Below are positions 5,989 through 54,030 of a stretch of 64,000 bases of DNA, in pieces. This DNA comes from Crambe crambe (taxonomy: Eukaryota; Porifera; Demospongiae; Poecilosclerida; Crambeidae), in contig OZ004585.1 of the NCBI GenBank assembly GCA_963924555.1, positions 3,671,488-3,735,487 on the forward strand. The letters run 5' to 3'. Position 1 is the stretch's first letter. The number at the start of each line of letters is the position of its first letter. The translations under genes and the position numbers were made by a program. The notes below the pieces were generated by a model. It had not been told where the DNA came from and searched no databases. It worked only from the letters and a program-made list of their open reading frames with translations.

Positions 5989-7293
5989 ATGGCTGAACAA
6001 AGAACGCCAAGTTTTACTCCTGGACCTACCAAGAAAAAAGGCAGAAAAATTACACTAGGGATGAAAAGCTGAACTTGTACAGGATGTGCCAACACTTCAA
6101 TATCAATTCAAAAAATGTACTTTGGTGGATCAAAGATGAAGGGAAGATTAAAGAAAGCAAGAGAGGAAAGCGAAATAAGAAAATAAGCAAAAACTTACTA
6201 GATCTAGTTTGTGTTGGTAAGGGAGTCAAAGTCAAAGGATGGTGGTTCAAAAGTTGTGCCGGGCAAATTCTAGATTCTACGCATCCTGATAATACCTTCA
6301 AGTATTCGCTAGAATGGTTTACCTGTTTTAAAACTCGCTACAAAATAAGTCTTAGGAGAGCTACTAACACTGCTCAGAAAGTGCCTCAAGATAAAGAAGC
6401 AGCTATCCAGGAGTTTCACAGACAAATTCGTGAAGTCCAGGCTCCAAGTGAGGGGGATGGTCCACAGGAAGAGCGGTTTAAACTTTGTCAAATTGCAAAT
6501 GTTGATCAGACTCCCCTCCCCTTTTCATTTACAGATGGTCCAACCTATGAAACTACAAATTCTTCCATGGTCTGGGTTCGGGGCCAGGCATCAGGGCTGG
6601 AGAAGCGTCAGTGCACTGCGCAACTCACAATTTTTGCTGATGGTGAACCAAGAGTGAAGCCTCTTCTGATCTTTAGAGGGAAAGGCAAACGGATAGGTTT
6701 ACGGGAACGACTTCAGTACTATAGACGAGTATCTGTGCAGTTTCAGAGCAATGCTTGGTGTGACGGAGTGATGATGGAATGAATTCCTGGAAACCCCATG
6801 TCAAAGAAGAGTCACTCCTTGTGTTCTACACAAGGCTCAAAAGACAGACCAAATACAGTCCATACTGCGAGAAGAGTGTGACATCACTCCAATTTTTGTT
6901 CCAGCCGGCTGTACTAGCATCATCCAACCACTGGACATGTTTCAATGCTCCTTTTAAGAAGAAGGTGGAGTCAGCAGCGATGCAGCATATATACAAGAAA
7001 ACCTGGAGCAGTACCTCAATGGCAAGCTTACTGCTGGAGAAAGGCGCAAAGTGGGTAGGTCAAGCTTGGGAAGAGCTGGCACAAATAGAGAAATGATAGT
7101 GAGGGCCTTCAAAAAATGTGGTATATCTGTGGCAGCAGATGGTTCGGAAGATTACGAAATTAACCTCAAGGAACTGGAAGATTATGAAACACCAATATTG
7201 GAGAACACAGACACCGATGAAGACCCATTTCCAGATCTAAGTGATGATGATAATGATGTTAATTTTACTGAAGATTTAAGCAGTGAGGACTGA
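5989..7293 (+). pseudogene. pogo/Tigger-type DDE transposase, frameshifted
   Basis: Reading starts at ATG 5989. It changes frame near 6060 ('GDEKLNLYRMC' resumes) and again several times between 6780 and 7060. The N-terminal part is lysine-rich and fits a pogo HTH/CENP-B-type DNA-binding region. The catalytic core shows 'NVDQTP' (first Asp) near 6500, 'FADGEPRVKPLLIFRGKGK', 'NAWCDGVMME', and later 'FVPAGCTSIIQPLDM', a pogo-family signature. The second catalytic Asp, expected before 'HKAQKTD', is missing: the text reads 'VLHKAQKTD'. The C-terminus is acidic, as in Tigger proteins. An 'aataaa' lies at 7337-7342. This copy should be catalytically dead. Confidence 0.8.
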
Positions 7294-19803: not shown

Positions 19804-19978
19804 TAGCTAATAAAATTGGTATGGTCTTAGACAGCTACTGTTCTCATTGTACAATGAGTTACCTCATCACGCTTTTCCATTTCTCCGACTCAAATTCCCG
19901 CGAGCCACCAAGCTGCTGCCACGCCGGCCAAAGACTACACGACACCGCAGGGCGGCCCGGCCGGCCTAGCCTCTTTCT

Positions 19979-20015
19979 CAGTCTAATCGCCAGCGTTGGC
20001 GAGGCCCATAGGGCT
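19979..20015. repeat. 37-bp sequence whose inverse forms the centre of the giant palindrome
   Basis: Identical, in inverse orientation, to 22164-22200. It begins 'cagtctaatcgccagcg', nearly the same as the start of the left arm ('cagtctaatcgccagtgg'). The following 'aatac' is also shared with the centre. Confidence 0.85.
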
Positions 20016-20512
20016 AATACAGTCTAATCGCCAGTGGACGTAATTAATTACCACGTATTAGCGATGACGTCATAAATTGTAGTCGAAAAACAGAAATTGT
20101 GCGGGTGTTTTGTATGGACTGTAACTGCCTCTTAGAAGCCGAAGAAGCAATATGGAGAGCACTTTCTGCTAAAGATGAAACCTAGGTAAGTATTACTGCA
20201 CAGTAAACATTGTTGCAAGCTATAAACAGGCAGAAAATTCAGCTATATGTTGCCTCTGTTGCTTGGCTAGTTTCATCACGTCATAGTGTTTCTTGCTAGA
20301 ATTTTCGTTCCTAGCAGTGGACACTTCAGATTCTAGCTGGATCCTGTGTAGCATTGCTTGTATAATATACAGTAGCAATTTTGTGGATGTAAGTATTGCA
20401 AAATGCAAATGTCACACCCATTCATCCTGTCTTTCATTTAGTTCATGTTCTTCATCACTCTCTATATTATCTCCTATCAATTCTTCGTTCTGTTTCTGAA
20501 GTCCATCAATGT

Positions 20513-21206
20513 TTACAGCTCCATCACTGCTTCAGGATGATTGAGACTGTTGTCATAGCTATTTAAACAGTTGACACACTTGCATCCTGGTCCACATTTG
20601 TATGCTTGTCAATTTTCAGCCACACCCATTGAAACAAAATCCTGAACTCTTGCCATGTTTTCAGGAACGTCTAAGACACTTTGGACTTTTCCATCCAACC
20701 ATTTCCAGCTATATAGGTAAATGTATGTGTGTCAGTGAGCTAGAAATCGAATCTTAATTACATTTCTCAAACAGCTAACTTACCTGGAAGATCAATGTCG
20801 TTGGAAGTTGCATGATGCCACATCTGTAATACCACAGGGAGCGATTCCAGTGGAGCTTTAGAGCTTCGGTAGAGGGCATGGTCATGTCTGCTCACTCCCA
20901 CACTGTTCTCCTGATGATAGTGCAAGTCATGGAGAGACTCTGATTTCATTGAATAAAAGAGGGTGATTGGTGAAGATTGGATAAATATACTCTAAAATAT
21001 CCACAGCCAACAAGTCGGAGGGAAGGGGAGGCAGGATCTGCTGTCACTTGTCCTAGTGAACCACACAGTGTTTCATTATTGATGAAGGAGAAAAATGATA
21101 GAATGTAGAGAGAAAACTGGTATTCCCGATCCCATGAAAAAGGAGTACAGACATTAAGTGTGGTAGTAGCTCTTCTGTGATAGTGTTCAAAGAGAGATAA
21201 GGGCAT
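20513..21206 (-). pseudogene. Cys-rich-tail gene fragment, left arm copy
   Basis: The mirror copy of the fragment at 23156-23849, with the same frames on the minus strand (21206-20946, then 20949-20767, donor, and a last exon ending in a stop at 20513-20515). See that entry for the motifs. One residue differs ('FRVYLSNL' here). Confidence 0.55.
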
Positions 21207-22163
21207 TCTGATTCAGGAACCTATAGCATCTTTAGGATGAAAATCTTACTCCCAGGAAACATAATAGTATCAAACGTATGTGATACACATCTGTACCTAT
21301 CAAGAGAGAATATCAACCTTATCTGGGGTTGGCCTGGGGTATTAAAAGATTGGTGGTGCTGTATGTCAGTTTTTTACAGTTCTGAATACAATAAATTGTT
21401 TCTGTTCGTAGCTACCTGCTTGGTTGGGCAGCCATCAAGGATGGAAATTTTTAATGTTAGCTAAGGGTTTTCCTTTTGATTTGCTTCATGGAAGCCTGGC
21501 AGAGGTATCCGTGTCTGAAAGTATCCCATGATGATTAATAGTCAATCAATATTTTTAAGTGTGTATCTGAATGATCACTGCTTACAGAGTGACATGGTCC
21601 ATGGGCAAGGGTTGTCATTGCTATAGTGTGTGTATAGCTATAGTAAAAGATTTGGATGGACTACTGCTAGCTAATAGCTAATACCAACACACCATTCTTA
21701 TTCAGTAGGCCATTATATTCAATGAACAGTATAGCTTCAAGCTATGAGTAGCATTCAAAGGCTCTATAAAGCAAAGGCTGTATTACAGACATGCACTAAT
21801 GGACAGTTAATTTTATTACGCATAACATGCCACTTATAATAGGAGGAGCTCTACATACCTTCGAAGTAGTGGCAGGAAGTGTGAAATACAAATGTCACAG
21901 CCCACAACACGATTGATTATCACAACATCAAAGACCACAAAAATGTAGCAGCTGCTTCGCGCGTGCAGCTGCATTTGCTATTAAAATTATAGTGGAGTTA
22001 GTACCGTGCAAGGTGCAGCTACAGGCAGCTTTATGCCTTCTGTAAAGGGAAAATCTCGGCACTACAACTAAAAGAAGTGAATTTGACCACAAATACTCTC
22101 TCCGGATACTTCCGTAAACTGGTGAGTGATAAAAGTGCGTGTCTGTGCAATTAAAGTTGTATT

Positions 22164-22200
22164 AGCCCTATGGGCCTCGCCAACGCTGGCGATTAGACTG
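22164..22200. repeat. Palindrome centre (37 bp)
   Basis: The only non-symmetric part of the giant inverted repeat. It is the exact reverse complement of 19979-20015, just outside the left arm, and holds a small hairpin 'cgccaacgctggcg'. Confidence 0.85.
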
Positions 22201-23155
22201 AATACAACTTTAATTGCACAGACACGCACTTTTATCACTCACCAGTTTACGGAAGTATCCGGAGAGTGTTTGTGGTCAAATTCACTTCCTTTAGTTGTAG
22301 TGCCGAGATTTTCCCTTTACAGAAGGCATAAAGCTGCCTGTAGCTGCACCTTGCACGGTACTAACTCCACTATAATTTTAATAGCAAATGCAGCTGCACG
22401 TGCGAAGCAGCTGCTACATTTTTGTGGTCTTTGATATTGTGATAATCAATCGTGTTGTGGGCTGTGACATTTGTATTTCACACTTCCTGCCACTACTTCG
22501 AAGGTATGTAGAGCTCCTCCTATTATAAGTGGCATGTTATGCGTAATAAAATTAACTGTCCATTAGTGCATGTCTGTAATACAGCCTTTGCTTTATAGAG
22601 CCTTTGAATGCTACTCATAGCTTGAAGCTATACTGTTCATTGAATATAATGGCCTACTGAATAAGAATGGTGTGTTGGTATTAGCTATTAGCTAGCAGTA
22701 GTCCATCCAAATCTTTTACTATAGCTATACACACACTATAGCAATGACAACCCTTGCCCATGGACCATGTCACTCTGTAAGCAGTGATCATTCAGATACA
22801 CACTTAAAAATATTGATTGACTATTAATCATCATGGGATACTTTCAGACACGGATACCTCTGCCAGGCTTCCATGAAGCAAATCAAAAGGAAAACCCTTA
22901 GCTAACATTAAAAATTTCCATCCTTGATGGCTGCCCAACCAAGCAGGTAGCTACGAACAGAAACAATTTATTGTATTCAGAACTGTAAAAAACTGACATA
23001 CAGCACCACCAATCTTTTAATACCCCAGGCCAACCCCAGATAAAGTTGATATTCTCTCTTGATAGGTACAGATGTGTATCACATACGTTTGATACTATTA
23101 TGTTTCCTGGGAGTAAGATTTTCATCCTAAAGATGCTATAGGTTCCTGAATCAGA

Positions 23156-23849
23156 ATGCCCTTATCTCTCTTTGAACACTATCACAGAAGAGCTACTACC
23201 ACACTTAATGTCTGTACTCCTTTTTCATGGGATCGGGAATACCAGTTTTCTCTCTACATTCTATCATTTTTCTCCTTCATCAATAATGAAACACTGTGTG
23301 GTTCACTAGGACAAGTGACAGTAGATCCTGCCTCCCCTTCCCTCCGACTTGTTGGCTGTGGATATTTTAGAGTAATTTTATCCAATCTTCACCAATCACC
23401 CTCTTTTATTCAATGAAATCAGAGTCTCTCCATGACTTGCACTATCATCAGGAGAACAGTGTGGGAGTGAGCAGACATGACCATGCCCTCTACCGAAGCT
23501 CTAAAGCTCCACTGGAATCGCTCCCTGTGGTATTACAGATGTGGCATCATGCAACTTCCAACGACATTGATCTTCCAGGTAAGTTAGCTGTTTGAGAAAT
23601 GTAATTAAGATTCGATTTCTAGCTCACTGACACACATACATTTACCTATATAGCTGGAAATGGTTGGATGGAAAAGTCCAAAGTGTCTTAGACGTTCCTG
23701 AAAACATGGCAAGAGTTCAGGATTTTGTTTCAATGGGTGTGGCTGAAAATTGACAAGCATACAAATGTGGACCAGGATGCAAGTGTGTCAACTGTTTAAA
23801 TAGCTATGACAACAGTCTCAATCATCCTGAAGCAGTGATGGAGCTGTAA
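23156..23849 (+). pseudogene. Cys-rich-tail gene fragment, right arm copy
   Basis: An 86-residue frame ('SLFEHYHRR', 'FINNETLCGS', 'DPASPSLRLVGCG') runs into a second overlapping frame ('YRSSKAPLESLPVVLQMWHH') that ends at a 'gtaagt' donor near 23579. After an intron with a 'ctatatag' acceptor (23653) the last exon reads 'WKWLDGKVQSVLDVPENMA', one in-frame stop, then 'YKCGPGCKCVNCLN' to a stop at 23847-23849. A 'PENM...CGPGC.C.NC.N' tail occurs at the C-terminus of transposon-like genes repeated in cnidarian and sponge genomes; the exact family is not known to me. Stop and frame overlap mark it as decayed. Confidence 0.55.
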
Positions 23850-24346
23850 ACATTGATGGACTTCAGAAACAGAACGAAGAATTGATAGGAGATAATAATT
23901 ATAGAGAGTGATGAAGAACATGAACTAAATGAAAGACAGGATGAATGGGTGTGACATTTGCATTTTGCAATACTTACATCCACAAAATTGCTACTGTATA
24001 TTATACAAGCAATACTACACAGGATCCAGCTAGAATCTGAAGTGTCCACTGCTAGGAACGAAAATTCTAGCAAGAAACACTATGACGTGATGAAACTAGC
24101 CAAGCAACAGAGGCAACATATAGCTGAATTTTCTGCCTGTTTATAGCTTGCAACAATGTTTACTGTGCAGTAATACTTACCTAGGTTTCATCTTTAGCAG
24201 AAAGTGCTCTCCATATTGCTTCTTCGGCTTCTAAGAGGCAGTTACAGTCCATACAAAACACCCGCACAATTTCTGTTTTTCGACTACAATTTATGACGTC
24301 ATCGCTAATACGTGGTAATTAATTACGTCCACTGGCGATTAGACTG

Positions 24347-24900
24347 TTCTGGGCGGGCGCGCGTGCCCTAGTCTGGCGCGCGCCAGACTAGTTTTTTTGT
24401 TGTTGTTTTTGCTCTGTCAATCCGTCTCCAATAGTCTGGTAGTTGAAGCTATAAAAAGGGGTGAACCCGGAAAAAAATCGAAGAAAGCCGATTTTGGTAC
24501 CATTAGAAAGCAAATTTTTTGTAGAATAACATCCAAAATCTTCCTCGGGGAAGCGTTTTTATGCAAAATAATATTATCATTAATTTTGGTGTCTGGCATT
24601 TTCTATAAGTTCCCAAAAATGTGATATCCGAAAAAAAATCATAAGAAATGTAGCTAATACAAAATTTGACTCAAAAATTAAATTGGGTTATTGTATTATA
24701 GCTATAATAATAATAATATAATGTTGGCTCTCATATGAATTCGGAAATATCTATGTCAGTATCGTCATAAACAGTTTCTTCAGCTTTCTCCCCTGCAATC
24801 GCCACATGCTGTGACACACTTTAATCCATGCTTACGACATGTACGTACGTACATACCTACGCCTGGGGCATTTTGGAGTGTAGACCTAGATATGTAATAG
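24347..24900. other. Non-coding stretch with a perfect palindrome
   Basis: Contains 'ctagtctggcgcgcgccagactag' in two halves at 24369-24392. The half 'tagtctggcg' recurs at 54031 and, inverted, at 8573, 48190 and 55703, so it looks like the terminus of a common element family. Nothing coding recognised. Confidence 0.55.
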
Positions 24901-32237: not shown

Positions 32238-32392
32238 CTCATATAGTAGGTGCTATGGCTTATCTAAGTGAATTATTGGCCTAGTAGGCCTCTGCCAAGT
32301 ATTTTGTCGAAATAGGTTCACATTAACAGCTTCCTACATGAGTAATCTTAATAGGCAATCACTTGCAATTTGGATACTAATAATAACAATAC

Positions 32393-32403
32393 TTTTTTTG
32401 TAG
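32393..32403 (+). promoter_or_regulatory. 3' splice site of a 5'-leader intron
   Basis: A 'tttttttgtag' acceptor sits seven bases before the MYND gene ATG. The paralogue at 62322 has a matching 'ctttttatag' followed by the same 'attaagc' leader. Both genes therefore probably have an intron in the 5' leader. Confidence 0.6.
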
Positions 32404-32410
32404 ATTAAGC

Positions 32411-35400
32411 ATGGATTCTATTAACGAAGCCAAGAAAGAATGTAACACTATGGCACCAACATTTCCTTTGGCTCGGATCTGTTACTTGGAATTCTATCGA
32501 GCGTATTATCCGTTTGGAAATATTCCTGCTGAGGACTTGCTAGAAAGCTGTGCAGATATTTTACAACCTTCTGTTTTAGTTCTTGGATGTAATGACTTAC
32601 GTTCTTGCTTTTATACCCTTTGGAAAAATTTTGATTCTTCAATTTCCACTGCTCCCAGGAAATTTGATGGTGCTTTTTTCACTTTAAATGATTACAGTGC
32701 TGCAATACTTGCTAGAAACATAGTTTTCTTACATTTATGCCTTCAACTTCCAGATGACCGTGCAGAGAAAAAGAACTGGCTGTGTGCAATGTGGGCTATT
32801 TGGTACTGCCATGAACTGTATCCTCATCACGTTGATATTTTGGATATCTCCATGAAAACATTGCTTACTTTTTCAGAATCTACAGAACGTTGGTGTAGGG
32901 AGGACAACCCACTTCATCAACTTGTACGATTTACTTCTTCTGTTTGCTTATCCGAAGTTGCTGATGTGTGGACGATGTGGCTGAATAAAGGCATCTCGGT
33001 TAGGAACATGCATGAATCTAGAAATCGATTGATGAGCAGGACAATCAATGATATTTCAGAGCACAGCATTTACCTTTCCAAAGGTCACACTTGTGTTCAT
33101 GGTGATGAAGACAAAGTACTAGCAAGAAAGGGTGCTGCTCGGGCACCTGAGGTACGGTCTTACCTCGAAGTTGGAAGGTGCTATGCTGAGCATGTTGTCA
33201 ACTTAGATTTACCAGAGAAATCTAAAAGTAAAGTCAATCCAACTATGTATGAAAGGCAAGATGGAGAGTATACTTGCCATTATGGCCTTATTCCATTTGA
33301 ATGTTACTACAACACCATAGAATTTTCTTCACATTTTATGAAATCCAATGGAGTAGCCATACCCTATGATGTTATTGTTCCTTCAGCAAGCTTTAAATCA
33401 AAGCCTTTTCTAGCCAATAGCTTCCAACAATTTTCCATGTGGATACAATCTTCTAGTAGAGTTCTGAAGGACAAAGAAATTACCATTTCATTCACTTTTG
33501 ACTCTCAAGATGCTATTACTTTCTGCCAACAGCAACTACAACAGAATTGGAAGCAGTTTTCACACAGCTTGACTGAAGAAGATAAATGCACATTGTACAA
33601 GTATGACATTATTACTACTTCTAATTTGATGGATCACGTTAGTCCTTTAAATTTGGTCTTAGCTTGTGTTCCACTATTGGAGGATGGTGGTCTTTTGACT
33701 ACCACGACCATGTGTTGTAAACATTGCACTAATACTGGAGAGGAATTACTTAACCTCTGCTTTGGATTCAACAGTGAGCTATTCCCAGTCATCTTGGGGG
33801 TACGTTGTATTAGTCACGAAGGTAGTAACTGTTCAAACTCTGTTATGATCAAACCATCTCCCCCTGATATATCTCATACGTTGAAGTGTCTCCCACATGT
33901 TAGAACTTTTGCATGGGTAAAAGTATCTAATGCACAAAAGCTAATATCCTCTCAATTACCTTGTGTAGAGGATGGTAACATAACAGAAGCTTTAGTAAAC
34001 CTGGTTGGGTCGTGCACTTATGCACTGCTGAACTATGGTCCTGGGGATAGCAAGAATATCTTAAGTCACAATGGCATTGAAACTGCAATGGGCATTTTAG
34101 ATCAGTTTATATGCCTTTCTGGTAAGGCAACTGCTGGCTACTCCTATTGGGAGCCTTTGTGCACTGCACTAAAACGTGTGGTCACTCCATTTCTTCATTG
34201 CCTTCAAACACAACTCCTACTCCATGACATTCATGCTCATTTGACTATTTCTGAAGAAAACTGTCCTGTTTGTCAAAAGGAACCATTAGCAAGTACACTT
34301 GGCTTTTTTGGTGCCAAGATTAACAAAAAGGTTATTTCGGGAGGGACTCCTTTCTTTGTAGCTTTTCTTCATCAACATTCATCCAAGGATTCTACTTTCC
34401 TGCAGAATGAAGCTTTAGAAGGCAGAGATGTCCATGTGTTTGACTGTTTTGATGTTATTTCTTCCACTGATATTCTTCAGCTGAAATTCTTTGCTCCATT
34501 AATGTTTGTACAGAAGGCATACCGGGTGACAATAACAATGGTTCATAGAACAAATCACCTTAATCATCTTACAACTGTTCTTTCTGTTAAACTGAAGGAT
34601 ATACAAACACCATGGACACAGTATGCTTTTTGCCCAATTGAAAAGCCCTCTCAGCCCGCCTCAATTCTTTTTGGAACAGTAACTTCACATATTTGTGATG
34701 GTTATAAATCCGAAACTGAGATGTGCCTTTCCAAAGCAACATTAGAAGCTCTTTCAACTGCTAGATTGAACACGGACAGAATTTCTTCTCATGTAGTCAG
34801 GCTGTACTGCAATTCCTTGAGTTTTCAATTGAGCTTCAGTTATCCAATCGATCATGACTCATTGAAAATAAAGTTTTCTAAACCCAAAGGTTTTTTGACT
34901 GTATCCTGTCAACGACAGCGTTATAGTTTGGAGGAAGAGAGGCCTTGTTTTATTGTGAGTCCAGACCATCACTTGTCTATTGTCCCAGCTAGTTTGAATA
35001 TGGAAGTGATGCTTTCACAATCATATATGCAAATGACAGAGGAGGAGAGTCACCTCCTTAAAACATTACACCCCACTCAGCTTTCTCCAGCCTTGATGGT
35101 CAAGCAATTCTTACAAACCTTCTTTGAGTGTGCAATGAGCAATTCTTTCTTTACTATCCCCTTTCCAAAGAAGAATATTCATTGCCTCATTGTAGTTAAT
35201 GAAATTTTATTTGACTATCAGCACAAAACCCCTGCTATTGATCTAGCCTTTTGTTTTGTAGATGATTTTGATCGGTTAGACATTATGAACAAGTGGGAGA
35301 GTGTTTCACATTCTTCAAAAGTACGATCACTACCACTGAATCAAGCAGGATTGGAATTTTTAAAGAAAATCTTGGCATACTTTTCACGACGAACAAATGG

Positions 35401-35740
35401 TACATTGCTCAGTGCTGGTAGCACAAGCAAATATGCTATCCTTCAGAAATTCCAACTTGATCATGCTTTTACTCGATGTGTTCTTTACCTTCTCCTATGT
35501 GATCCTGATGTAAAGTTATATGCATCAGGTGACCCTTTTGGGTTGACAACTGCAGACCTTTTACCTAAAACAGGTGGTATTTGTTGTGCTTGCTGCAACA
35601 AACTTACTTTCACGGCCAAGAAATGTGGAAGGTGTGTACAAGTGAACTACTGCAGTAAACGATGCCAAATTAAGGACTGGAAATCACACAAGAGTCAGTG
35701 CATACAGGCTGCTAAGCACAAAGCAACGTGCACCAAGTAA
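32411..35740 (+). CDS. DUF4470 + MYND zinc-finger protein, intact
   Basis: A single uninterrupted 1109-codon ORF. Residues about 33-112 look like DUF4470: 'YPFGNIPAEDLL', 'VLVLGCNDLRSCFYTLW', 'FFTLNDYSAAILARNIVFL', the N-terminal fold also found in the dynein assembly factor DNAAF3. The C-terminal finger has the MYND pattern: Cys 1058-1062, Cys1072, Cys1075, 'NYCSKRC' (1079-1085), His1093 and Cys1097. MYND fingers bind proline-rich peptides. The 900-residue middle has no domain I recognise. No signal peptide or membrane segment. The start is set by conservation of the leader and ATG with the copy at 62322. Two relatives lie in this window (43985-45592, 62322 to the end), so it belongs to a local family. 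Biochemical role unknown. Confidence 0.85.
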   Translation: MDSINEAKKECNTMAPTFPLARICYLEFYRAYYPFGNIPAEDLLESCADILQPSVLVLGCNDLRSCFYTLWKNFDSSISTAPRKFDGAFFTLNDYSAAILARNIVFLHLCLQLPDDRAEKKNWLCAMWAIWYCHELYPHHVDILDISMKTLLTFSESTERWCREDNPLHQLVRFTSSVCLSEVADVWTMWLNKGISVRNMHESRNRLMSRTINDISEHSIYLSKGHTCVHGDEDKVLARKGAARAPEVRSYLEVGRCYAEHVVNLDLPEKSKSKVNPTMYERQDGEYTCHYGLIPFECYYNTIEFSSHFMKSNGVAIPYDVIVPSASFKSKPFLANSFQQFSMWIQSSSRVLKDKEITISFTFDSQDAITFCQQQLQQNWKQFSHSLTEEDKCTLYKYDIITTSNLMDHVSPLNLVLACVPLLEDGGLLTTTTMCCKHCTNTGEELLNLCFGFNSELFPVILGVRCISHEGSNCSNSVMIKPSPPDISHTLKCLPHVRTFAWVKVSNAQKLISSQLPCVEDGNITEALVNLVGSCTYALLNYGPGDSKNILSHNGIETAMGILDQFICLSGKATAGYSYWEPLCTALKRVVTPFLHCLQTQLLLHDIHAHLTISEENCPVCQKEPLASTLGFFGAKINKKVISGGTPFFVAFLHQHSSKDSTFLQNEALEGRDVHVFDCFDVISSTDILQLKFFAPLMFVQKAYRVTITMVHRTNHLNHLTTVLSVKLKDIQTPWTQYAFCPIEKPSQPASILFGTVTSHICDGYKSETEMCLSKATLEALSTARLNTDRISSHVVRLYCNSLSFQLSFSYPIDHDSLKIKFSKPKGFLTVSCQRQRYSLEEERPCFIVSPDHHLSIVPASLNMEVMLSQSYMQMTEEESHLLKTLHPTQLSPALMVKQFLQTFFECAMSNSFFTIPFPKKNIHCLIVVNEILFDYQHKTPAIDLAFCFVDDFDRLDIMNKWESVSHSSKVRSLPLNQAGLEFLKKILAYFSRRTNGTLLSAGSTSKYAILQKFQLDHAFTRCVLYLLLCDPDVKLYASGDPFGLTTADLLPKTGGICCACCNKLTFTAKKCGRCVQVNYCSKRCQIKDWKSHKSQCIQAAKHKATCTK

Positions 35741-36564
35741 AATTAATTACTCCTGCATTTTCTTTTATAAGTAGCTGAGCAATAGTAAGGTAGCTATTTT
35801 TTGTATGCATTTGTGTTATTGTTGTTTTAGACCACATCAACTTAATTACTTGTTTATCATCCCCTAATTTTACTTTTAATTTTATTTCTACTGAGCATGC
35901 GCATGATGTTCTCTATTTGAAATTCAGGTGTGATTTTCGGTGTAATTTTAGTTTTGGCAGCTATTATGGTGTTTCAAATAAGGTGTGCAGCTGCTTCAGT
36001 TTTAGCTACAAGGGTTTAGGGAAGAGTAGCTACCCCATTTTCTGCTTGGCCAACACTGAAAGGGCCAAATACTGGAATAATTTCAGTGACTAAGTCTGGA
36101 TCTACAGAGTTGAGGGATTCCTATGAATATTTCAGAGAGCAAGTACTGGTTGGAAGAAGACTGGACACACTGAGATCTTATCTCAGCCTTGAAAAAACGC
36201 CTAAACGTGTAAGAAGGCTGCTCTACAGTAGCAATCTTCCAGGGAACACTTTTAGCTTCTGACAATATCTCAGCACCATAATTTCTGTGTAGCCGTGTTG
36301 ATTTTTAAGAGCAGAAGTTTTCCACTATCCAAACCGTCAACTCCTACGTGCACCTTTCGCCAATAGAAGCTTGAACCACTTTGATATGTTCAGCCGCAAC
36401 GAACAGAACAGATCTGCCTTCTCGTCAATGCTGCCACCCTGATCCCGACCCCGTTTAGTTGATCCATCAAGACGACGTTCCTTCGTCTAACTGCCAGCAC
36501 CTTAGAATGTGGGGGTGGGGCTGTACTGGCAATAGGGAGTGGTTGACTGACTGCATGTACTGCG
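35741..36564. repeat. 3' flank of the MYND gene and repeat fragments
   Basis: The first 70 bases are shared with the region after 45591 ('tttataagtagctgagcaat'), so they are the 3' UTR of the MYND family. 36285-36440 matches 46430-46570 ('cactatccaaaccgtcaact', 'agccgcaacga'). 36511-36564 is the left part of repeat X, continued at 41932. Confidence 0.6.
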
Positions 36565-36578
36565 CAAAATTTGACTTG

Positions 36579-36795
36579 TAGTATAGCTGGATAGCAAAAG
36601 TAATGTGCACTTTGCGATAAAAGCATGAAACTTTGCACATCAATTCTACACATATTTTTTGACATAGAACCATGACATTCAGGTAAATTTAGGTGTGAAT
36701 TTGCATACAAAAATAGCAAATTTCTGTATTAAATCTTGATATATCACTGTAATATACCCATTCTGGATATCATTTGAAAGGTCATGTTCTAAGGA
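36579..36795 (+). repeat. Left TIR of the multidomain element
   Basis: Pairs with the complement of 41715-41929; identity is moderate, with gaps. It starts 'tagtatagctgg'. Confidence 0.7.
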
Positions 36796-37069
36796 ACATC
36801 TTGAAACTTGAATCAAGATCATAGCTCATTTGGTTCCAAAGTTATGACCATTTTTATACCTTTAAATGTGTCAAAATCTGGTTAATTAGCTATATCTGTA
36901 TAGTGGTTTGTACTACTCCCCGCAGCTGCAGGTTTTTTCTTGCAGGCTGGCTATTTTGTGCTTCAAATAGAATTCAGTTGGCACACATGGTAAGTTATCT
37001 TTCAAACAGCTGTTTAATGGTTACTGAAAATGCTACTGCTGTATACAGGTGATAGAAGCTCTGTTGCCA

Positions 37070-40000
37070 TGGCAAAGCGGCATTCATTGGTAGATGCTTC
37101 TACACCTATGCCTCTCAAGAAACCTTGCATCACAGACTGGAGGTTTTGTGTCCTTTGTCAAAAAAACACTAAAGCAGGTTTGGAATGTCCAGCTAGGTCC
37201 TCCAAAGCACCTATTGGTAGTGGCTACAAATCACTAGCAGAGCACCTCATTCAGTTTCAGATGCATGATTGCATGCCACTTGATATAGATATTGAAAGGC
37301 TAGATGATGGAGATGGTATTGAAGCTACGATGATGAAGCATCACGCTTGCTGGCATAAAGCATGTCGCGTAAAATTTAACCAGACCAAGCTTGAGCGGCT
37401 GGAAAAAAGACGTGCAGATATGAAGAATGAGAGGGATAAGTCACAGCCTATGCAGACTCGTTCTAATAATGAGAGTGTGGTACTTAATGAGGACAGATGT
37501 TTCTTCTGTGATGAATCAGCTGGTTCTGCACGTCTACACAATGCTTCCACCTATGATATCGACAGGAAAGTTCGCAAATGTGCACTAGAGCTTGAAGATA
37601 CTTCTCTCTTAGCCAAATTGGCACCAGGTGACATGATTGCCCTTGAAGCAAAGTATCATGGTAGGTGTCTTGTAGCATTGTACAACAGAGCTAGATATGC
37701 CAGAACCATGCATATGACTGAGGATCATGCTGATCTTCATAGTATTGCATTTGCGGCATATATGGAAGATTTTCGGATGGAAGGGAGTGTTGCCCCAGTC
37801 TTCAAATTGGCTGACCTAGCACATTTGTACAAATTGCGTCTTGGGAGTTGTAGTTGAAGGCCGTGTTCATACATCAAGATTAAAACTGAGGTTGCTTTCT
37901 GTCTTTCCAGATCTTAGCGCACATCTACAGGGGAGAAATCTGATGCTTTCGTTCGATGATGATATTGGTGATGGTCTTAAGAAAGCTTGTGATCATGACA
38001 GTGATAATGATGCTATGCATTTGGCACAAGCAGCAAAAGTAGTAAGGAAAGAAATGTTCAGCCAAGCCTTTTCATTCAATGGTACATTCAGTGAAGAATC
38101 TTTGCAAAATGCTGTACCACAGTCATTACTCGCTCTTGTCAGTATGATTTTAGAAGGTCCCAACATAAAGCACCAAACTCAGCTTGTCGCTACAGCTAAT
38201 ACAAAAGCATCCCATTCCATTTCTCAGCTCCTGATGTTTAACAGTGTCAAACACACACGAGCTATGGATTCCTCTTCTACTGTTCGTCACAGCTCTGAGC
38301 GTGAAGCACCTGTTCCGATTAATGTAGCACTGAAAATCCATGCTGTCACACGTAGTAGGAACTTGATTGATGCGCTCTTTAGTCTAGGCTTGTGTATTTC
38401 TTATGACCGTCTTTTGAATTTGACATCTGATATAAGCAATGCAATCTGTGAACAATTTAGGGTAGATGGCATTGTGTGCCCCCCAAAGTTGCGTTGTGGT
38501 GTCTTTACATCAGCAGCAGTTGACAATATAGACTACAATCCTACTTCTTCTACAGCAAAGGATTCATTTCATGGCACTCATCCAGCATCTATCTAGTGTA
38601 TCTGAAGGACATGATCGTGGTGTGCAGATAATTCGTCGGACTGCTTCTCGGTCTGTTGTTCCTCTGCCCTTACACTACACAAATGTGCCACCAGCATCTA
38701 TCAAGACAAAGGAATTTACTGCACCTGCTGTTGGTAGTCCCTATTACTCTGCTGAACGTTGAAACGGCTAAAGAAGGAGAAACAGAGTGGCTTAATAAGG
38801 TTATGGCAGTTCTCACCAAAAGAGAAGTCGGACGTGATGGATTGGATCTCTTGGTCTGCATATCATGCAAGCATCCAAAAAACTGAAGTTCCACCTGCTG
38901 CAATTAATGCACTGTTACCACTATTCATGGATAGTGCACATTCAATAGCCATGATCAAACACTTTATGACTATCGTTCAAGCAGCTATTCAACATCTCAA
39001 CCCTGGCCAGGTTCCTATTCTTACTGCCGATCAACCACTGTTTGCCCTTGCTAAACAAATCCAATGGACTTGGCCAAATCAATTTGGAGAAAGCCTCTTT
39101 GTGATCATGTTTGGTGGCCTGCACATTGAAATGGCTATTTTGAAGGTAACACTAATGTTTAATTAAGGTCTGATGAATGTATGTCTTTATTATTGTAGGT
39201 ACTTGGAGACTGGCTAGATGGTAGTGGATGGATCAGTGCTCTGGTGCAGGCAAATATTGCAAGCACCGGCACAGCCAATTCGTTTATCAGTGTAAGCCAT
39301 GTGACAAAAACCAGACATGTCCACCAAGTGACAGTTGCGAGCATCCACATTTTACTACATCATGCTTATGCTGACTACAAGTCAGAAGAAACAAGTGTTT
39401 TGTCTTTGGAGCAATGGTGTGAACTCAGATCACAGCAGAGTGTCCATTTTTATTACTGGTTGAAAACTCTTGTACTGGAAACTTTGATGCTGCTGTATAT
39501 CAGATCTCTTCGTGAAGGCAACTTTCAACTGTACTTAGAATCCTTGACAAAGATTGTACCCTGGATGTTTGCATTTGATCACACGCACTACTCTAGGTGG
39601 TTACCAGTACACCTTTGGGATATGACCTTGCTTTCAGAAAAGCATCCTGGAATCTATGATGAATTTTGTGCAGGGAAATTTGTTGTTCATAAAACATCTA
39701 ACAAGTTCTCTGCCATGGCAATTGATCAATGTCACGAGCAGAACAATGCTATCATCAAAGAGTCAGGTGGGGCTGTTGGACTGATGACTAACCCAGGAGC
39801 ACTACGACGTTGGATGGTGGCAGGTCCAGAAGTTGTAAGGATGGTGAATGAGCTTGAAGCTTTACAATCATGTGATCAGATCACTGATCATAGGCACCAT
39901 GAACAATATCTAGGGGTCCAAACTTCCTTCTTGAAAGAAGCGAAGTCTTTGGTTGCTGTAATCGAAGAGATGGGAAACCCATTTTTGGAGCAAAGCAAAG

Positions 40001-41598
40001 ATCTTTTAGTTCTCGACACAAGGGATATTCTAGACCCATCTGTTGGAGAATCAGTGAGAAAGGCTGAAAAACTTGGTGAGAAACAATACCACAACTTTGT
40101 TGAAGAGAGGCTTATTACATGTGAGAAGCCTATTACTGATGTAATCCCCAAAAAATAAGTTGGTATTGCTCAGTCATCCGCCACCAAAGCCACCCTCAAA
40201 GCAGAAAATGCAAGTTACAGCTTTAAAAAAATGACTGTAATCTCTTTTCACGACTATATTGCATGTCAAACAAGATCAGGTGACTTAGAGACTTTTTTCA
40301 TGCATGAGAACCAGGCTGCTCCACCATCACTATCACTGGGAGGAAAATTCGCCTTGGTACCAAAGCTGACCTTCTGGATTGTCTTGGATTGGAAGAAATA
40401 CAATCCACAGTCACACCTGTTGTAGATGCCAAATTGCTTGATGGTGTGGCTGTAGTTCAGATGCTCAATCCTGGCACAGCCAGAACTTTTCAAGAATATT
40501 CAGACCTAGTGTTTCTTCCCTATGTCACAAATCAGCTAGCAACAGCCAAGAGAGTGGATATAGTGTGGGATGTATACATTCCAGATAGCTTGAAAGGCAC
40601 TACCAGGCAAAAGAGAGGAAAGGGCATCCGAAGGCGAGTGGCTCCAAGTACTCAAATCCCAAAAAAAAGGAAAGACTTTCTTCGTGTGGATGGGAATAAA
40701 ACAGAATTGTTCTAATTTTTATCACAACAGGCAATACATTTACCGATTGATGAAAGAAAGGTTATCTATGCAACTGATGGAAGAAATGTATTGACTACTA
40801 TGGATAATGCTGTCTTGACAAACCTTTCCCCTTGCTTACATGACACCTGCCTTTTTTTGCATGCAGCTGATGCTGTCAAGAAAGGTCACAGTGTGTGTGC
40901 ACAGTAGATACCGATGTTCTGGTGATTGGAATTGCATTGTTCAACCAAATCAATCCTGATGAGCTGTGGTTGGCATTCGGCACGGGCTCAAATTTCCGTT
41001 ACATCCCCATCCATGAGGTTATTAGTGGAATGAATCCCAGGAATTGTGCTGTTCTACCAGTTTTTCATGCATTTACAGGATGTGATACTGTCTCATCTTT
41101 TGGTGGAAGAGGAAAGAAGACAGCTTGGAAAATCTGGCAAGTTTTTCCTGACCTTACTGAAGCATTGGAACACCTTTTGATGGTGATTCTGTGATGTCTG
41201 CGTTGGAACAATTTGTAGTGTTACTATACGATTGAACTAGTGATCAAGTGAGTGTCAACAATGCTAGGAAGCAACTATTAACACAGAAGTCACGCAGCTT
41301 AGAGAACTTACCACCAACACAGGCTGCACTTGTACAGCATATCAAACGAGCAAGCTATCAAGCAAATTGCTGGAACAGAGCCCTGCATCTGGATCCTAGT
41401 CTTCCAAGCCCAATAGACTGGGGATGGCAAAAAGACAGTGTGGGATGGCAACCTTTGTGGACTACTCTGCCAGAAGCTTCTGAGTCTTGTCATGACCTCA
41501 TTCACTGTGGTTGCAAGAAAGGGTGTAGAGGGAAGTGTAAATGTTTGAAGGCTGCACTGAAGTGTACTCCACTTTGTTCTTGTTCAGGAACATGTTGA
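37070..41598 (+). pseudogene. Large metazoan transposon-like multidomain protein, frameshifted
   Basis: The ORF opens at ATG 37030 or 37069 and continues over eight or more frame changes. In order: a Cys/His cluster ('FCVLCQKNT', 'HHACWHKACRVKFN', 'RCFFCDESAG'), 'EAKYHGRCLVALYNRA', 'LADLAHLYKLRL', 'VEGRVHTSRLK', 'FGGLHIEMAILK', a 53-bp intron (39146-39198), 'LGDWLDGSGW', 'ALDHTHYxRWLP'-like 'AFDHTHYSRWLPVHLWDM', 'DQCHEQNNAIIKESGGAVGL', 'RVDIVWDVYIPDSLK', a PIN-like region with 'TVDTDVLVIGIALF' and 'HAFTGCDTVSSFGGRGK', and a Cys-rich tail ('HCGCKKGCRGKCKC', 'CTPLCSCSGTC'). The same order recurs in many uncharacterised cnidarian and sponge proteins. Frame breaks are near 37840, 38575, 38810, 40150, 40230, 40350, 40720, 40890 and 41200. 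Possible nuclease role by the Asp-bearing PIN-like motifs is inference. Confidence 0.75.
39146..39198 (+). other. 53-bp intron in the multidomain gene
   Basis: 'gaag|gtaacact' to 'ttattgtag|gtacttgg'. It keeps 'MAILK|VLGDWLDG' in frame across the junction and contains an in-frame stop, so it must be removed. Confidence 0.75.
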
Positions 41599-41663
41599 AC
41601 TGCTTAAACACAACTCACAACCTAATATTCCACTGATATAAATGTTATATTCATTAAATACCT

Positions 41664-41669
41664 AATAAA
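41664..41669 (+). terminator. Poly(A) signal of the multidomain gene
   Basis: 'aataaa' 66 bases after the stop, before the right TIR. Confidence 0.5.
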
Positions 41670-41714
41670 ACTTTTGAACAGAATGAAATATGGATATAAT
41701 ACAAGTACCAAATT

Positions 41715-41929
41715 ATTTGTTACATTGAGACCTTTAATTTGATACCCATATTGGTGGTAAAACAATTTTAACCATTAATTTACTCCTAGAGGTCACTAAA
41801 GGTCAAATTCTGAGGTGGTTCTATGTCCAAAAAATAACTTCATTATGTATAGAAACTACATACAAAGTTTCACGCTTTTATCATTAAATGCACATAACCT
41901 TTGATTTTTTAAGCTAAACAGCTATACTA
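41715..41929 (-). repeat. Right TIR of the multidomain element
   Basis: Inverse of 36579-36795; contains 'tggttctatgtcc', 'caaagtttcacgcttttatc' and ends 'agctatacta'. Confidence 0.7.
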
Positions 41930-41931
41930 TT

Positions 41932-42760
41932 ACCCTTCACCTCAGAAGAAGTTTTAAAGTCATAAGTTGTTCATAGCAGGTCCTGCAGGACCCTCCTCAG
42001 ATTTTGATATGCAAGAATATGACATCGAAGCGTGCATGATGCAACATAATTTATAGTTAGCAGCTTCATGAGGAAAATAGCTAATTAGCTAATGATGGAA
42101 ATGTAGCATGTAACTTGAATACCTGTCCAGTTAATTGTTGCGATGTCATAACTAATCTGCCTACTGAGTTGAGTGAGAACCTCATTCCCAGGCTCTAACT
42201 ATCTCTCTTACTTGCACTCTAGCCCTGTGTGAGAGTCATTTTGAGATACCCCCTTTTTATCTTTCTGCTATAACTTATAATTATTAGGGTTTTGTAAAAT
42301 CAGAAAATTCAGGACACCCAACTGTGGCTATAGTAGGGTTTACTGGACTGTCCTTAAACTCTGCCACTTCTGAAGATTCCTGCATGGTGAGCACGAAAAT
42401 GACTTAATAACACACTAGCTAACTAGTATTATCTCATTACTGTCCACAAATTCCTCAAGCAACTGTAAGTGTACGGTGTGCCAACCAAAGTCTCTATTAA
42501 CCAGTATTAATGATCCTTACCAAATTAGGAGCTGAACGAGCTAGGCTAATGCCACAGGCTTATTGCAATTCTATGAACTCTATGTGCCAGGGCCCTGTCC
42601 CCTGTTCCCACTCCTGTATAGCTGAGCCAGATCTTTGGTTTATTGTTGCATTACAATTCTGAAATTCCCTAGGGATCGCCACTCTTGTGTTTATTTTTAG
42701 CTCAGCTGGGAAATTACATAACTAGCCTCCAAATAGCTACAGTTGAAGACTTGCAACAGA
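41932..42760. repeat. Repeat X, copy 1 (right part)
   Basis: Continues 36511-36564 after the inserted element. It matches 53890-55870: 'tcagaagaagttttaaagtc', 'aggtcctgcagga', 'acacccaact.tggctatagt', 'gtccacaaattcctcaa', 'gccacaggcttattgca' and 'ctgttcccactcct'. Copy 2 is interrupted by two other elements. No coding content. Confidence 0.8.
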
Positions 42761-43984: not shown

Positions 43985-45592
43985 CAGCTCTCAATATGCA
44001 AGTGATGCTTTCACAATCATATATGCAAATGACAAGGGAGGAGAGTCACCTCCTTAAGAAATTATGCCCCACTCAGCTTCTCCAGCCTTGATGGTCAAGA
44101 GATTCTTGCAAACCTTCTTGAGTGTGCAATGAGCAATTCATTCTTTTCTATCCCCTTTCCAGAGAATATTCAATGTCTCATTGAAATTTTATTTGACTAT
44201 CAACACAAAACCCCTGCTATTGATCTAGCCTTTTGTTTTGTAGATGATTTTGATCGGTTAGACATAATGAAGAGGTGGGAAAGTGTTTCACATTCTTCGA
44301 AAGTACGATCACTACCACTGATTCAAGCAGGACTGGAATTTTTAAAGAAAGTCTTGGCACACTTTTCACAACGAACAAATGGTACATTGCTCAGTGAAGT
44401 TCCAACTTGATCATGCTTTTACTCGATGTGTTCTTTACCTTCTCCTATGTGATCCTAATGTAGAGTTATATGCATCAGCTTACGGTTTGGGGTTGACTAC
44501 TCCCAACTTTTTACCTAAACAGGTGACAAACTTACTTTCACAGCCAAGAAATGTGGAAGGTGTGTACAAGTGAACTACTGCAGTAAACGATGCCAAAGTA
44601 AGCACTGGAAATCATACAAGAGTTGGTGCATACAGGTTGCTAAGCATCAATGCACATTCTGCAAGGAAAGGTTGGTGTTTTCATAAAGAACACCAATTGC
44701 ACATGTGTGGGTATCCAGTATTGCAGCATGGATTGTCAGAGTAAACACTGGCCAGAACACCTTAAAACATGTGAAGATGTCAAGGCTGCAAAGATGACCA
44801 AAAGTCAGCCAAACCTGGATGTTCCTTTTGTCATCTTGTATGAAGAAGTGCACAAGGTGTGGACAAGTCCAATATTGTGATCGGGACTTTCAAAAAAAGC
44901 ACTGGTCTGAACAAAAAAAGGTGTGTATTGAGTCCCAAACAACCAGTGGGAAATTGCCAACTTCTTGCTCTTATTGCAACAAATCACCATTGGACTTGAG
45001 AAAGTGTACATGGTGTGGAAATGTTCAGTATTGTAATCACAACTGTCAGGCTAAAGATTGGCCAGAGCATAAGAAAGTTTGTACAGATGCAATGAAACTT
45101 CAATCATGTGATACCAGCAAGCATACTTCTAGTGATCATTTGCTGAAGTGTGCCTTTTGTAAGAAACTGTCAGATAATCTCAAGAATTGTTCAAGATGTG
45201 GAAAGGTTCAGTATTGTGATCAAGACTGCCAAATGAGGCATTGGCCTGAGCACAAGAAAGTTTGTGTGGAGTCTGTAAGCTTAAAGTTCAATGAGTTTTC
45301 ACAGAAATGTGCTTATTGCAAAAATGCTTCATTCACCCTCAAGAAGTGTACGAAATGTGCGGCTGTACAGTATTGCAGCCAAGACTGTCTGCAGAACCAT
45401 TTGCCCGAGCATAAAGTTGTCTGTAGGTACATTACAGAAATGAATGAAGTGTGCCAGCCCTCATGTGGATTTTATGGTTCGTGTCCAGAAAAACTATTTA
45501 GTTGCAAAAAAGTGTGGAAAGGTGGAGTATTGTGGAAGAGAATGTCAGTCTAAACACTGGAAGAAACAAAGCAATGTGCACATAGTAACATA
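43985..45592 (+). pseudogene. Truncated MYND paralogue with about seven tandem MYND fingers
   Basis: 43985-44640 is a copy of the end of the intact gene (34990-35700) with small deletions that break the frame; the first Cys pair of its own finger is deleted. Six more fingers follow: 'QYCSMDCQSKHWPEH', 'QYCDRDFQKKHWSEQ' (one Cys is Phe), 'QYCNHNCQAKDWPEHKKVC', 'QYCDQDCQMRHWPEHKKVC', 'QYCSQDCLQNHLPEHKVVC', and a frameshifted last one 'EYCGRECQSKHW'. An open frame 44819-45553 covers four of them. The 3' flank after 45592 matches that of the intact gene. The N-terminal DUF4470 part is absent. An 'aataaa' follows near 45664. Fingers 4 and 5 look complete, so an MYND-only protein from 44819 cannot be excluded. 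Confidence 0.75.
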
Positions 45593-49562: not shown

Positions 49563-49944
49563 AAGGGAAGTCGCCCACGCAGGAAACATTTCCTATGATG
49601 GCAACGGGCCTAGCAACCCAAATGATGTCACAAAAATGCACTATAGCTAGCACTAGCAACAGCCTCGTGGCTAATTAAGCAAAATAGAGCCCACCTCCAT
49701 GTAGACAAAGGCCTGTTCTTGATTTTTCCAAGAAGAAGCAAGGAAATCGGCCCAGCAAAGCCTGAAATATGCCGCTCTATTCATGCTACTATACCGCTAA
49801 GTGTATCAAGATCAGAAGCCCTTCTGGCATACTGAAAGATACTGAGTTGGAGCCCTTTTGGAGCTGTTACAAGATTTCTGGGAAGCTAGTTTGTGCTAAT
49901 TTTTCTGGATGCGCTACGAGGTCAGCAAAAATCAATTATAATCC
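49563..49944. other. Spacer before the LINE
   Basis: No homology seen; LINE reading begins only near 49945. Confidence 0.4.
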
Positions 49945-49949
49945 TTCTG

Positions 49950-50850
49950 TGCATTAATAAACAAATTCCCTCTAAATTAATATGCAAACATACGCAACTT
50001 GAATTACTAACAGTAGAAATCTACACTACTCCCATAGTAACCCTCTGTCTTATCTATAGACCCCCTAACACATCTGATGAGTCAGAACTACATTTACATT
50101 CCTACCTACAGGGACTGGCGAAAACTGACAACCTAATCATTCTAGGCGATTTCAACTATTCAGACATAAACTGGCTTTCTCTTTCAGCAAACCAAGTATC
50201 CTCCAATCAATTCGTAGATCTACTATTTAGAGAAGATCTAACTCAACTAGTTTTATCATCTACCCACTGCAAAGGAAATATCTTAGATCTCGTTATTACC
50301 AACACGGAGGACTCAACCAGTAATCTATGGATTGACTCCAACAGTAATCACTCTGACCATTTCCCAGTCCATCTCTCGGTGGTTAGGCCTTTGCCCGGAA
50401 AAAAACCTAAGGCTGGGGCCATCTTAATCCCCAACTACAACAAGGCTAACTTCGAGGATATGTGCAACTTCCTCTTAGATCATGACTTTAGCGAGTTCTA
50501 CGAGTCTGACAACATAGATGACCTTTGGTTTTACCTCAAAAATACGATCACTGATGCAGTTGACAAATTCGTACCAACAGTCCGCATCAGCAACAATAAT
50601 TTTCCAAAATGGTTTACTCCTGATATCAAACATCATATAAACAAATTGCGTTATTTCAGAAGAAAAGACCGTTTCAAGTCAACTACTCAGTCCAAATCAA
50701 AAATCAGACTAGAAGAAGAACTCTCCAGTCAGAAATATCTGAAGCTAGGTCACGCTGGGAGGAGAAATTAGTCAACGATTTCGCATCCTCTGACAGTAAC
50801 AAGATCTTCAGCTATCTAAGAAGTCTAGGAAGATCTACAACTTTCCCAAA
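49950..50850 (+). pseudogene. LINE apurinic-type endonuclease, truncated
   Basis: The readable part begins 'INKQIPSKLICKHTQLELL'. Motifs of APE endonucleases: 'LIYRPPNTSD', 'LILGDFNYSDINW' (about 50130-50168), 'THCKGNILDLVIT' and 'SNHSDHFPVHLSV' (about 50348-50385), which hold catalytic Asp, Asn and His. The first part of the domain (with the QETK-type Glu) is missing. A frame change near 50757 leads into the linker 'FASSDSNKIFSYLRSL' and then the RT frame. Confidence 0.8.
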
Positions 50851-50854
50851 TCCG

Positions 50855-52611
50855 ATGTACCTGGATTCTAGAGAGGGAAGCACTCCCCAAATGAAGGCCA
50901 AGCTATTCAATGAATACTTTCATTCAGTGTTCAACACTACGAGCTCCAGCACTACATCATCAGCCATACCATCCCAACTATTAGACACTCCCAGCCACAT
51001 CAACTTCAACTCTAGTGACACATTCAGAGCGCTTACCTCTTTGGATACCACCAAATCAATGGGAATCGACAAAATCTCACCAAAGGTTTTAAAACACTGT
51101 GCTATAGCACTTCACGAACCTATCAATCAATTGTTCCAGTTAAGTCTAGATAAGGGGTATTTACCACCTGAGTGGAAACAACACCTCATCATCGGATACT
51201 GAAGTCAGGTGACAGATCACTAATTGTAAACTACAGGCCAATATCTTTACTCCCCATCATATCCAAGCTGCTCGAAAAATTAATTCTTGACAAGATTACT
51301 GACTTTTTATCTACTAGCACCATCAACCCTACCCAATTTGGGTTCCTCAAGGGAAAGTCTACTATCCAGCAAATGCTCACCTTTACCAACGACATTATGT
51401 CAATCATAACATCAAAAGGTCAAGTGGATACCATTTACTTGGATTTTAGCAAAGCCTTCGACACTGTACCCCATCCAGAGCTGCTTTCTAAGCTAAGCAA
51501 CTATGGTATAACCGGTAAACTGTGGCAGTGGTTAAAGGAATACCTAACCAATAGATGGCATTGCACAGCAATAGACGGCAGTAAATCATCCTTCTTACCA
51601 GTTACATCAGGTGTTCCTCAAGGGAGTATCCTTGGGCCTTTCCTTTTCATACTATATCTAAACGACTTACCTCTCACCACCAAACATTCCAAAATCCTAA
51701 GCTTCGCTGACGACACTAAATGCTACCAAGTGATCAGAGGAATCTCTGATGTAGACCACCTTCAAGAGGACCTATACAATATAGGTACATGGGCATCTAA
51801 CTGGAAAATGTCATTCAATATCAACAAATTTGCATGCATCCAATTCTGCAACAAAGAACCAACCTGTGCAAACTATGCCATGAATGGCATTTCAATTCCA
51901 TGCAGCAGTCAGCACAAAGATTTAGGAATAATCCTAACCAACAACCTTTCTTGGGGCAAACATCATGAACATATCCTGGCCAAAGCCTATACCAAACTCA
52001 GTATGGTACGTCGTACTTTTGGTCCCTACACTTCAATCCAAACAAGGAAAAAGCTGTACACATCACTGATTCAATCCCAATTCCTATATGGGTCCCAATT
52101 GTGGAGACCTATGTTCATCAAAGATATAGTCACAATAGAACAACTACAACGCAGAGCCTCAAAGTTCATTTTACAAGACTATACTTCTGATTACAAATCT
52201 AGACTTAAATCTCTTCACCTGTTGCCGCTAATGATGTTGCTTGAGCTCAATGACATCATGTTTCTTGTTAATAATCTGAAAAATCCCTCCAATTCTTTCG
52301 ATATCTCCAATTACGTGTCATTCAGTTCTACTGCAACCAGGTCGGGTTCCCTCAAACTCACCCACTCAAGATCTATCTCCAACTCCCAAAGGCACTTCTA
52401 TTTTAACAGGTTGACTAGTTTATGGAACTCTCTGCCACCAATTGATTTAACCCTAGGTGCCCCAACCATCAAATATAAACTCAAAGTCTACTTTTGGTCA
52501 GTTTTTCTGAGTAGATTCGATGCCTACAACACTTGCACATTCCACATTGTCTGCCCTTGCCGAAGCTGCAAGTCAATTCCCAAGCCACCCAATTATAAAT
52601 ATGACATGTAA
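50855..52611 (+). pseudogene. LINE reverse transcriptase
   Basis: The frame is open from 50855 to 51202, shifts by one near 51190 ('LPPEWKQHLII' | 'ILKSGDRS'), then is open to 52611. RT motifs in order: 'VNYRPISLLPIISKLLEK', 'TQFGFLKGKSTIQQ', 'YLDFSKAFDTVPH' (catalytic Asp), 'GVPQGSILGPFLF', 'SFADDTKCY' (YADD box) and 'HKDLGIILTNNLSW'. A C-terminal 'LYGSQLWRP...RRASKFIL' and 'LHLLPL' block is typical of CR1/Jockey-type LINEs. A Cys-rich end 'VCPCRSCKS' follows. One frameshift disables this copy. Confidence 0.85.
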
Positions 52612-53835: not shown

Positions 53836-54030
53836 TAGGGGTGGGGCTGCACTGGGAATAGGGAGTGGCTGTTTGTACTGCCCTAACCCCTTCATCTCAG
53901 AAGAAGTTTTAAAGTCAAGCGACCCGTAAGTGAGATAGTTATCAGGTAGTTCATAACAGGTCCTGCAGGACACTCCTCAGATAATTAATGAGGGAAATGT
54001 ATGCATACCTGTCCAGTGCTATGTCGTAAT

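Follow-up and report, generated by a model that had tools for sequence, protein, structure and literature searches.

A decayed nuclease-encoding DNA transposon of the sponge Crambe crambe, probably of the AcademX branch, with a putative DUF6589-like transposase core

For the AcademX branch of the Academ superfamily of DNA transposons, the references are Repbase, Kapitonov and Jurka (2010), and Kojima (2020). The Cys-rich zinc motif of Academ is a Cys8 motif, and its nuclease is of the XPG type. In the passages cited, Academ is one of the DDE/D superfamilies, its elements in bivalves averaging 5,565 bp (PMC10294476), and is divided into AcademX, with target duplications of 3 or 4 bp, and AcademH, with 9 or 10 bp, a division related to the presence of a nuclease or a helicase, respectively (PMC10045372). 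Here we describe a 5,351-bp element in a 64,000-nucleotide stretch of the Crambe crambe genome (GCA_963924555.1, contig OZ004585.1, positions 3,671,488 to 3,735,487; hereafter the window), on a contig that we call C8 in a genome of 143 Mb and 119 contigs. An earlier note on this DNA had assigned the gene inside the element to a DNA transposon with terminal inverted repeats (TIRs), of a superfamily that it could not name. The TIRs, the empty sites, and the exact target duplications of relatives bear out the transposon, and a name can now be offered. The nuclease and the 3- and 4-bp duplications fit AcademX as described in the passage cited (PMC10045372), and the feature is very likely a decayed autonomous DNA transposon of this nuclease branch of Academ.

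The element was delimited by TIR alignment together with comparison to empty sites. Its outline is as follows, in window coordinates:
36579-41929, forward strand: whole element, 5,351 bp, with tips TAGTATAGCTG...CAGCTATACTA
36579-36883, forward strand: left TIR, with conservation highest close to the tip
41619-41929, reverse strand: right TIR, from local alignment with the left end
36576-36578, no strand: candidate left target duplication TTG, decayed, its position fixed by relatives with exact 3-bp duplications
41930-41932, no strand: candidate right target duplication TTA, decayed and one base unlike the left, from comparison of the empty site and the tips

When 36579-36883 was aligned locally to the reverse complement of 41619-41929, the score was 155, against a top score of 96 in 1000 dinucleotide-preserving shuffles, so a chance origin of the TIRs, a case that the earlier note had itself raised, is rejected. 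The diverged inverted ends that it had placed around 36565-41931 are therefore real, with the start moved to 36579 (TAGTATAGCTG) and the end to 41929. The likeness of the two ends is strong at the tips and weak farther inside. Left ends resembling that of the window are found at 12 further places (L030-L033 and L035-L042; 75-93% identical, compared at the left end), nine of which show 85-94% identity across 348-393 columns. The gene of the window copy is broken into at least seven open coding pieces with changing frames.

The insertion site is also present without the element:
53838-53982, forward strand: empty site, a paralogue of the insertion site that lacks the element

Here, 36512-36554 matches 53838-53881 and 41933-42002 matches 53888-53982, in agreement with the earlier observation that the flanks are joined without the 5.4 kb at 53836-54000; 10-20 bp of the left flank beside the tip have no counterpart. 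A genome search with the left flank returned a cleaner empty paralogue, L034, on the same contig about 94 kb away. In this alignment, 36183-36576 lies at L034:1253-1657 and 41934-42400 at L034:1662-2202, and the left-flank match ends at 36576, two bases short of the element tip. Four bases, CGCT, separate the flanks in L034, where the window instead has the element tips, bordered by TTG on the left side and by TTA on the other. The target position in the empty L034 reads TCG, from which TTG and TTA could have arisen by CpG decay. Two further paralogues, L043 and L044, likewise lack the insert. The insertion-site flanks recur at several places on this contig, and the region thus resembles a local duplicated cluster. 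Taken alone, the window copy, with its diverged ends and no exact duplication, would also suit a host gene family whose flanks are inversely similar by chance; this reading is refuted by the empty sites together with over 100 matches dispersed in the genome, relatives that have exact duplications, and hundreds of like tips, and we give it next to no probability.

Searching the genome with the 319-aa piece of the window gene returned at least 103 protein matches, and the open frames of the relatives reach 1846 aa. No relative was confirmed in the viral contigs searched. The window, L009-L028, L045, and L046, 23 loci in all, were examined, and 15 of them have both ends resolved. An inverted pair of 19-300 bp surrounds the gene region in 16 of the 20 loci L009-L028 at E of 0.01 or better, and none was seen at E 0.01 in L009, L018, L025, and L027. 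Ten of the 15 resolved loci have TAGT tips, and six of these ten carry an exact 3-bp duplication (L010, L012, L019, L022, L023, and L024; ∼0.16 expected). The remaining five have CAGTC tips (L026, L027, L028, L045, and L046), each with an exact 4-bp duplication (∼0.02 expected). In a maximum-likelihood tree of 13 rows, with two untyped rows, flagged long branches, and a window row that spans 20% of the columns, a single branch of 100/100 separates TAGT (seven rows) from CAGTC (four rows); in this genome, the tip motif and the length of the duplication divide by clade. L045 and L046 occupy different sites and, in four main blocks, share 97-99.8% identity as far as the tips. The pattern CAGTCNNNNCGCCANCGT occurs 255 times in the genome and TAGTNNRGNNRATATGTGNA 58 times, with a count of zero for either pattern reversed. 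Of 17 tip pairs hand-picked among the places listed, which are part of the 255, 12 span 1.42-1.44 kb, and such short tip pairs are taken as non-autonomous elements.

Several features of this set weigh against the AcademX reading. The window copy has TTG/TTA in place of an exact duplication, and among the other TAGT-tip loci, an exact 3-bp duplication is likewise missing from L011, L013, and L015. Eight of the 23 loci are without two resolved ends (L009, L014, L016, L017, L018, L020, L021, and L025) and were left out of the duplication count. In five of the 15 rows (L011, L013, L024, L026, and L046) the ends were placed at the TAGT/CAGTC motif, a shift of 1-36 bases relative to the repeat match. 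Outer inverted pairs of L012 were set aside, and the one that was checked has no duplication. Short stretches outside the tips of L045 and L046 are still similar.

Read together with the relatives, the open pieces of the window copy lay out one large protein:
37075-37857, forward strand: N-terminal Cys/His clusters, putatively zinc- and DNA-binding (open frame and relatives)
37820-38593, forward strand: coding piece in another frame; DNID, at 38522-38533, holds the candidate first catalytic D
38756-39145, forward strand: coding piece in which DQPL holds the candidate second catalytic D, at 39029-39031, followed by a GGLH motif at 39113-39124
39199-40155, forward strand: 319-aa piece comprising an insertion region with HTHYSRWLPVH and the candidate catalytic E in DQCHEQNNA, at 39736-39738
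40308-40712, forward strand: predicted start of a FEN/EXO1-type nuclease, with VWD at 40569-40571, K at 40593-40595, and R at 40614-40616
40871-41191, forward strand: predicted second part of the nuclease, with TVDTDV (D at 40907-40909 and 40913-40915) and TGCDTVSSF (D at 41084-41086)
41236-41595, forward strand: C-terminal part, with a Cys-rich tail at about 41503-41595

The gene order that the earlier note had read from the letters (Cys/His clusters, HTHYSRWLPVH, DQCHEQNNA, TVDTDV, TGCDTVSSF, and Cys-rich tail) recurs in the genome's own relatives. A 53-bp GT...AG stretch at 39146-39198 breaks the coding sequence in the window, and the relative L010 is uninterrupted there; this is either a short intron or a gained insert.

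When eleven long protein frames were aligned with the window piece, DN[x]D was found in all six rows that reach the region. A second D (DQPLY, DAKVY, or DEGVY), with G..H after it, is found in eight of nine rows, and D...E follows the insertion in every row, with D395 and E399 (first row, alignment A2) invariant. The D-D-E residues are kept in this way among proteins that are only ∼20% identical. The Pfam domain DUF6589, which is of unknown function and whose name appears in no paper of the literature searched, matches eight of the eleven aligned members at E ≤ 1. The match is at E < 0.001 in six (L010, L024, L025, L026, L027, and L028) and weak in L022 and L011; two members (L027 and L028) exceed the Pfam cut-off, as does L045 with 61.1 bits against a cut-off of 27. 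From this conservation, the upstream region appears to be a DDE transposase core of a DUF6589-like kind. There are points on the other side. L011 has N in place of the second D. DUF6589 does not match the window's own pieces at E up to 10, so the link of the window element to this domain runs via its relatives, and the corresponding segments of L016 and L013 give no match either (the whole frame of L013 reaches 0.002). A PDB search with the DDE-core profile returned nothing below 0.037. An NCBIfam search returned nothing significant.

By its profile matches and invariant residues, the C-terminal part is a predicted nuclease of the FEN/XPG/EXO1 family. Against the PDB, profile A1, built from nine proteins (eight of the nine are 18-46% identical to the first), has Exonuclease 1 as its only significant match (E 3.9e-6 to 2.1e-4; next 0.39), and profile A3, built from ten proteins, finds the same enzyme at E 5.9e-6 to 3.4e-4 (next 0.15). 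The 12 invariant columns of A1 (K, D, K, R, K, D, D, D, G, D, S, and K) cover the D, K, and R of VWD/VFD...K...R, the D of EEAD or its equivalent, both D's of DTD, and the G and D of GCD; we take these to correspond residue by residue to FEN1. The order of acidic residues, the K and R after VWD/VFD, and GCD followed by a GIGK-like motif are shared with EXO1, FEN1, and XPG. Unlike those enzymes, the window-type nuclease is fused behind a putative transposase and has long insertions. Less favorable to the family assignment, the single segments that match Exonuclease 1 score low (15.5 and 11.6 bits), and the Pfam XPG models match none of the nine members at E ≤ 1. The one predicted structure, of the 107-aa nuclease piece from its sequence alone, has a pLDDT of 38, too low to speak for or against a fold.

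The earlier note had suggested perhaps a PIN/FEN nuclease instead of a classical DDE core. The first half of this idea was sound, with a nuclease predicted at 40.5-41.2 kb, and the second half appears not to be: the relatives keep DN[x]D...D...E upstream and match DUF6589. One could still suppose that transposition is catalyzed by the nuclease and that the D-D-E pattern upstream is non-catalytic, as the 12 invariant columns of the nuclease, the D-D-E profile without a PDB match below 0.037, and L011 without a second D might suggest. The persistence of DN.D (6/6 rows), the second D (8/9), and D...E (all rows) at ∼20% identity argues otherwise, as may a helicase-paired branch in the same genome that is strong for DUF6589 (E to 5.9e-46), and we consider a PIN/FEN transposase highly improbable.

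This helicase-paired branch came from the DUF6589 matches in the genome, of which there are 110, forming 81 loci, with a best E of 5.9e-46; 14 bacterial and archaeal control genomes gave none. Helicase_C lies within 3 kb in 39 of the 81 loci, at a distance of 389-1269 bp, where 0.56 would be expected, and all 39 partners are convergent, on the opposite strand at the 3′ side. Thirteen of the 81 coincide with a window-type place, none has both partners, and 29 have neither among the matches compared. No helicase lies within 3 kb of any of 74 window-type places, a set obtained by reducing the 103 matches by hand to 72 (most of the 31 left-out rows are fragments of a listed place) and adding two on C3, which have neither a helicase nor DUF6589 within 3 kb. 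We infer that the helicase-paired loci are AcademH. DUF6589 with a convergent helicase is seen, for example, at C3:7080171-7082212, and some such pairs are multicopy with equal scores (C3, C17, and C20), perhaps recent AcademH-type elements.

The split between a nuclease with 3-4 bp duplications and a helicase mirrors that between AcademX and AcademH, and for this reason the superfamily is most likely Academ. Like AcademX, the window-type elements encode a predicted nuclease and have 3- or 4-bp duplications in relatives, and the window element has a length in the usual range; what differs is that tip motif and duplication length are here split by clade, a comparison made by description only. 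With AcademH, the window-type relatives share the DUF6589 core found at the helicase-paired loci of the same genome. Membership in AcademH itself was rejected, with no helicase gene encountered within 3 kb of the window-type places (0/74); the AcademH duplication is 9 or 10 bp by report. The Cys-rich tail and the N-terminal Cys/His clusters were observed, and may answer to the zinc motif of Academ. Two other superfamilies were considered. EnSpm/CACTA elements have the tips CACTA...TAGTG and are ruled out by the tips found here, TAGT...ACTA or CAGTC...GACTG. Kolobok elements duplicate TTAA and are ruled out by the varied 3- and 4-bp duplications.

The assignment has its weak sides. The element was placed by published descriptions and not by alignment to Academ sequences. 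Helicases are no proof of AcademH, because in the passage cited AcademH, KolobokH, and Helitron are all named as sources of such domains (PMC10799480). These points would favor a TIR transposon of another or unnamed superfamily, merely Academ-like, in which the nuclease and the duplication length were acquired independently; the passage on the two Academ branches says only "nuclease" and does not give the XPG type (PMC10045372). That window-type relatives and the helicase-paired branch of the same genome have DUF6589 in common, and that the nuclease and both duplication lengths fit reported AcademX, makes such an origin unlikely in our view. A transposase and nuclease arrangement is already known from Academ; the link to DUF6589 and the clade-specific duplication length are new.

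The following cut-and-paste scheme can be proposed, in which the ends, the empty sites, the relatives' duplications, and the domain similarity are observed, catalysis throughout is read from conservation, and the role of the nuclease is a proposal. A single large protein would begin with zinc clusters, continue with a DUF6589-like DDE core whose last E follows an insertion and with a nuclease of FEN/EXO1 type, and close with a Cys-rich cluster. It would bind the inverted ends, with the zinc clusters and the ends bringing the latter together. The D-D-E core would then excise the element and join it to the two target strands with an offset of 3 bp, or of 4 bp in the sister group; the target duplication would arise when host repair fills the gaps. 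The nuclease would most likely process flaps or hairpins at the element ends or the donor site. More tentatively, and with rather less than an even chance of being right, the DUF6589 core may work with alternative helpers in one genome, a nuclease of FEN/EXO1 type fused to it or a helicase from a convergent gene, with the helper, and not the DDE core, setting both donor-end processing and target-strand spacing; the nuclease would open flaps or hairpins as a built-in tool, and the one-base change between 3 and 4 bp would have taken place once, at the split of the two clades.

The window also holds elements with the ends of the 4-bp clade:
19979-24346, no strand: non-autonomous element with CAGTC...CGCCA ends and TTCT flanks, interrupted by an inner copy
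20020-22200, no strand: second copy nested in the first, in opposite orientation, with AATA flanks

Once its insert is removed, the host copy shares 99.3% identity with the inner one, and both are 2.18-kb units with their own exact 4-bp duplications; the nested pair occupies 19975-24350. Elsewhere in the window are MYND zinc-finger genes at 32387-35740 and 44798-45553, one of them with DUF4470, and LINE-like frames at 49890-52611, with a reverse transcriptase at 51172-52608 (RVT_1, E 2.2e-32) preceded by a frame that is endonuclease-like by eye. A 261-aa frame at 5997-6782 resembles, on inspection by eye, part of a transposase of the pogo/Tigger type and has no Pfam match at E 0.001.

These findings would turn a seemingly mysterious animal protein into a transposase and tie DUF6589 to Academ; if this is true, annotators could recognize such genes as mobile. 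With nuclease-bearing and helicase-paired forms in one genome, the roles of the two helpers may be compared side by side.

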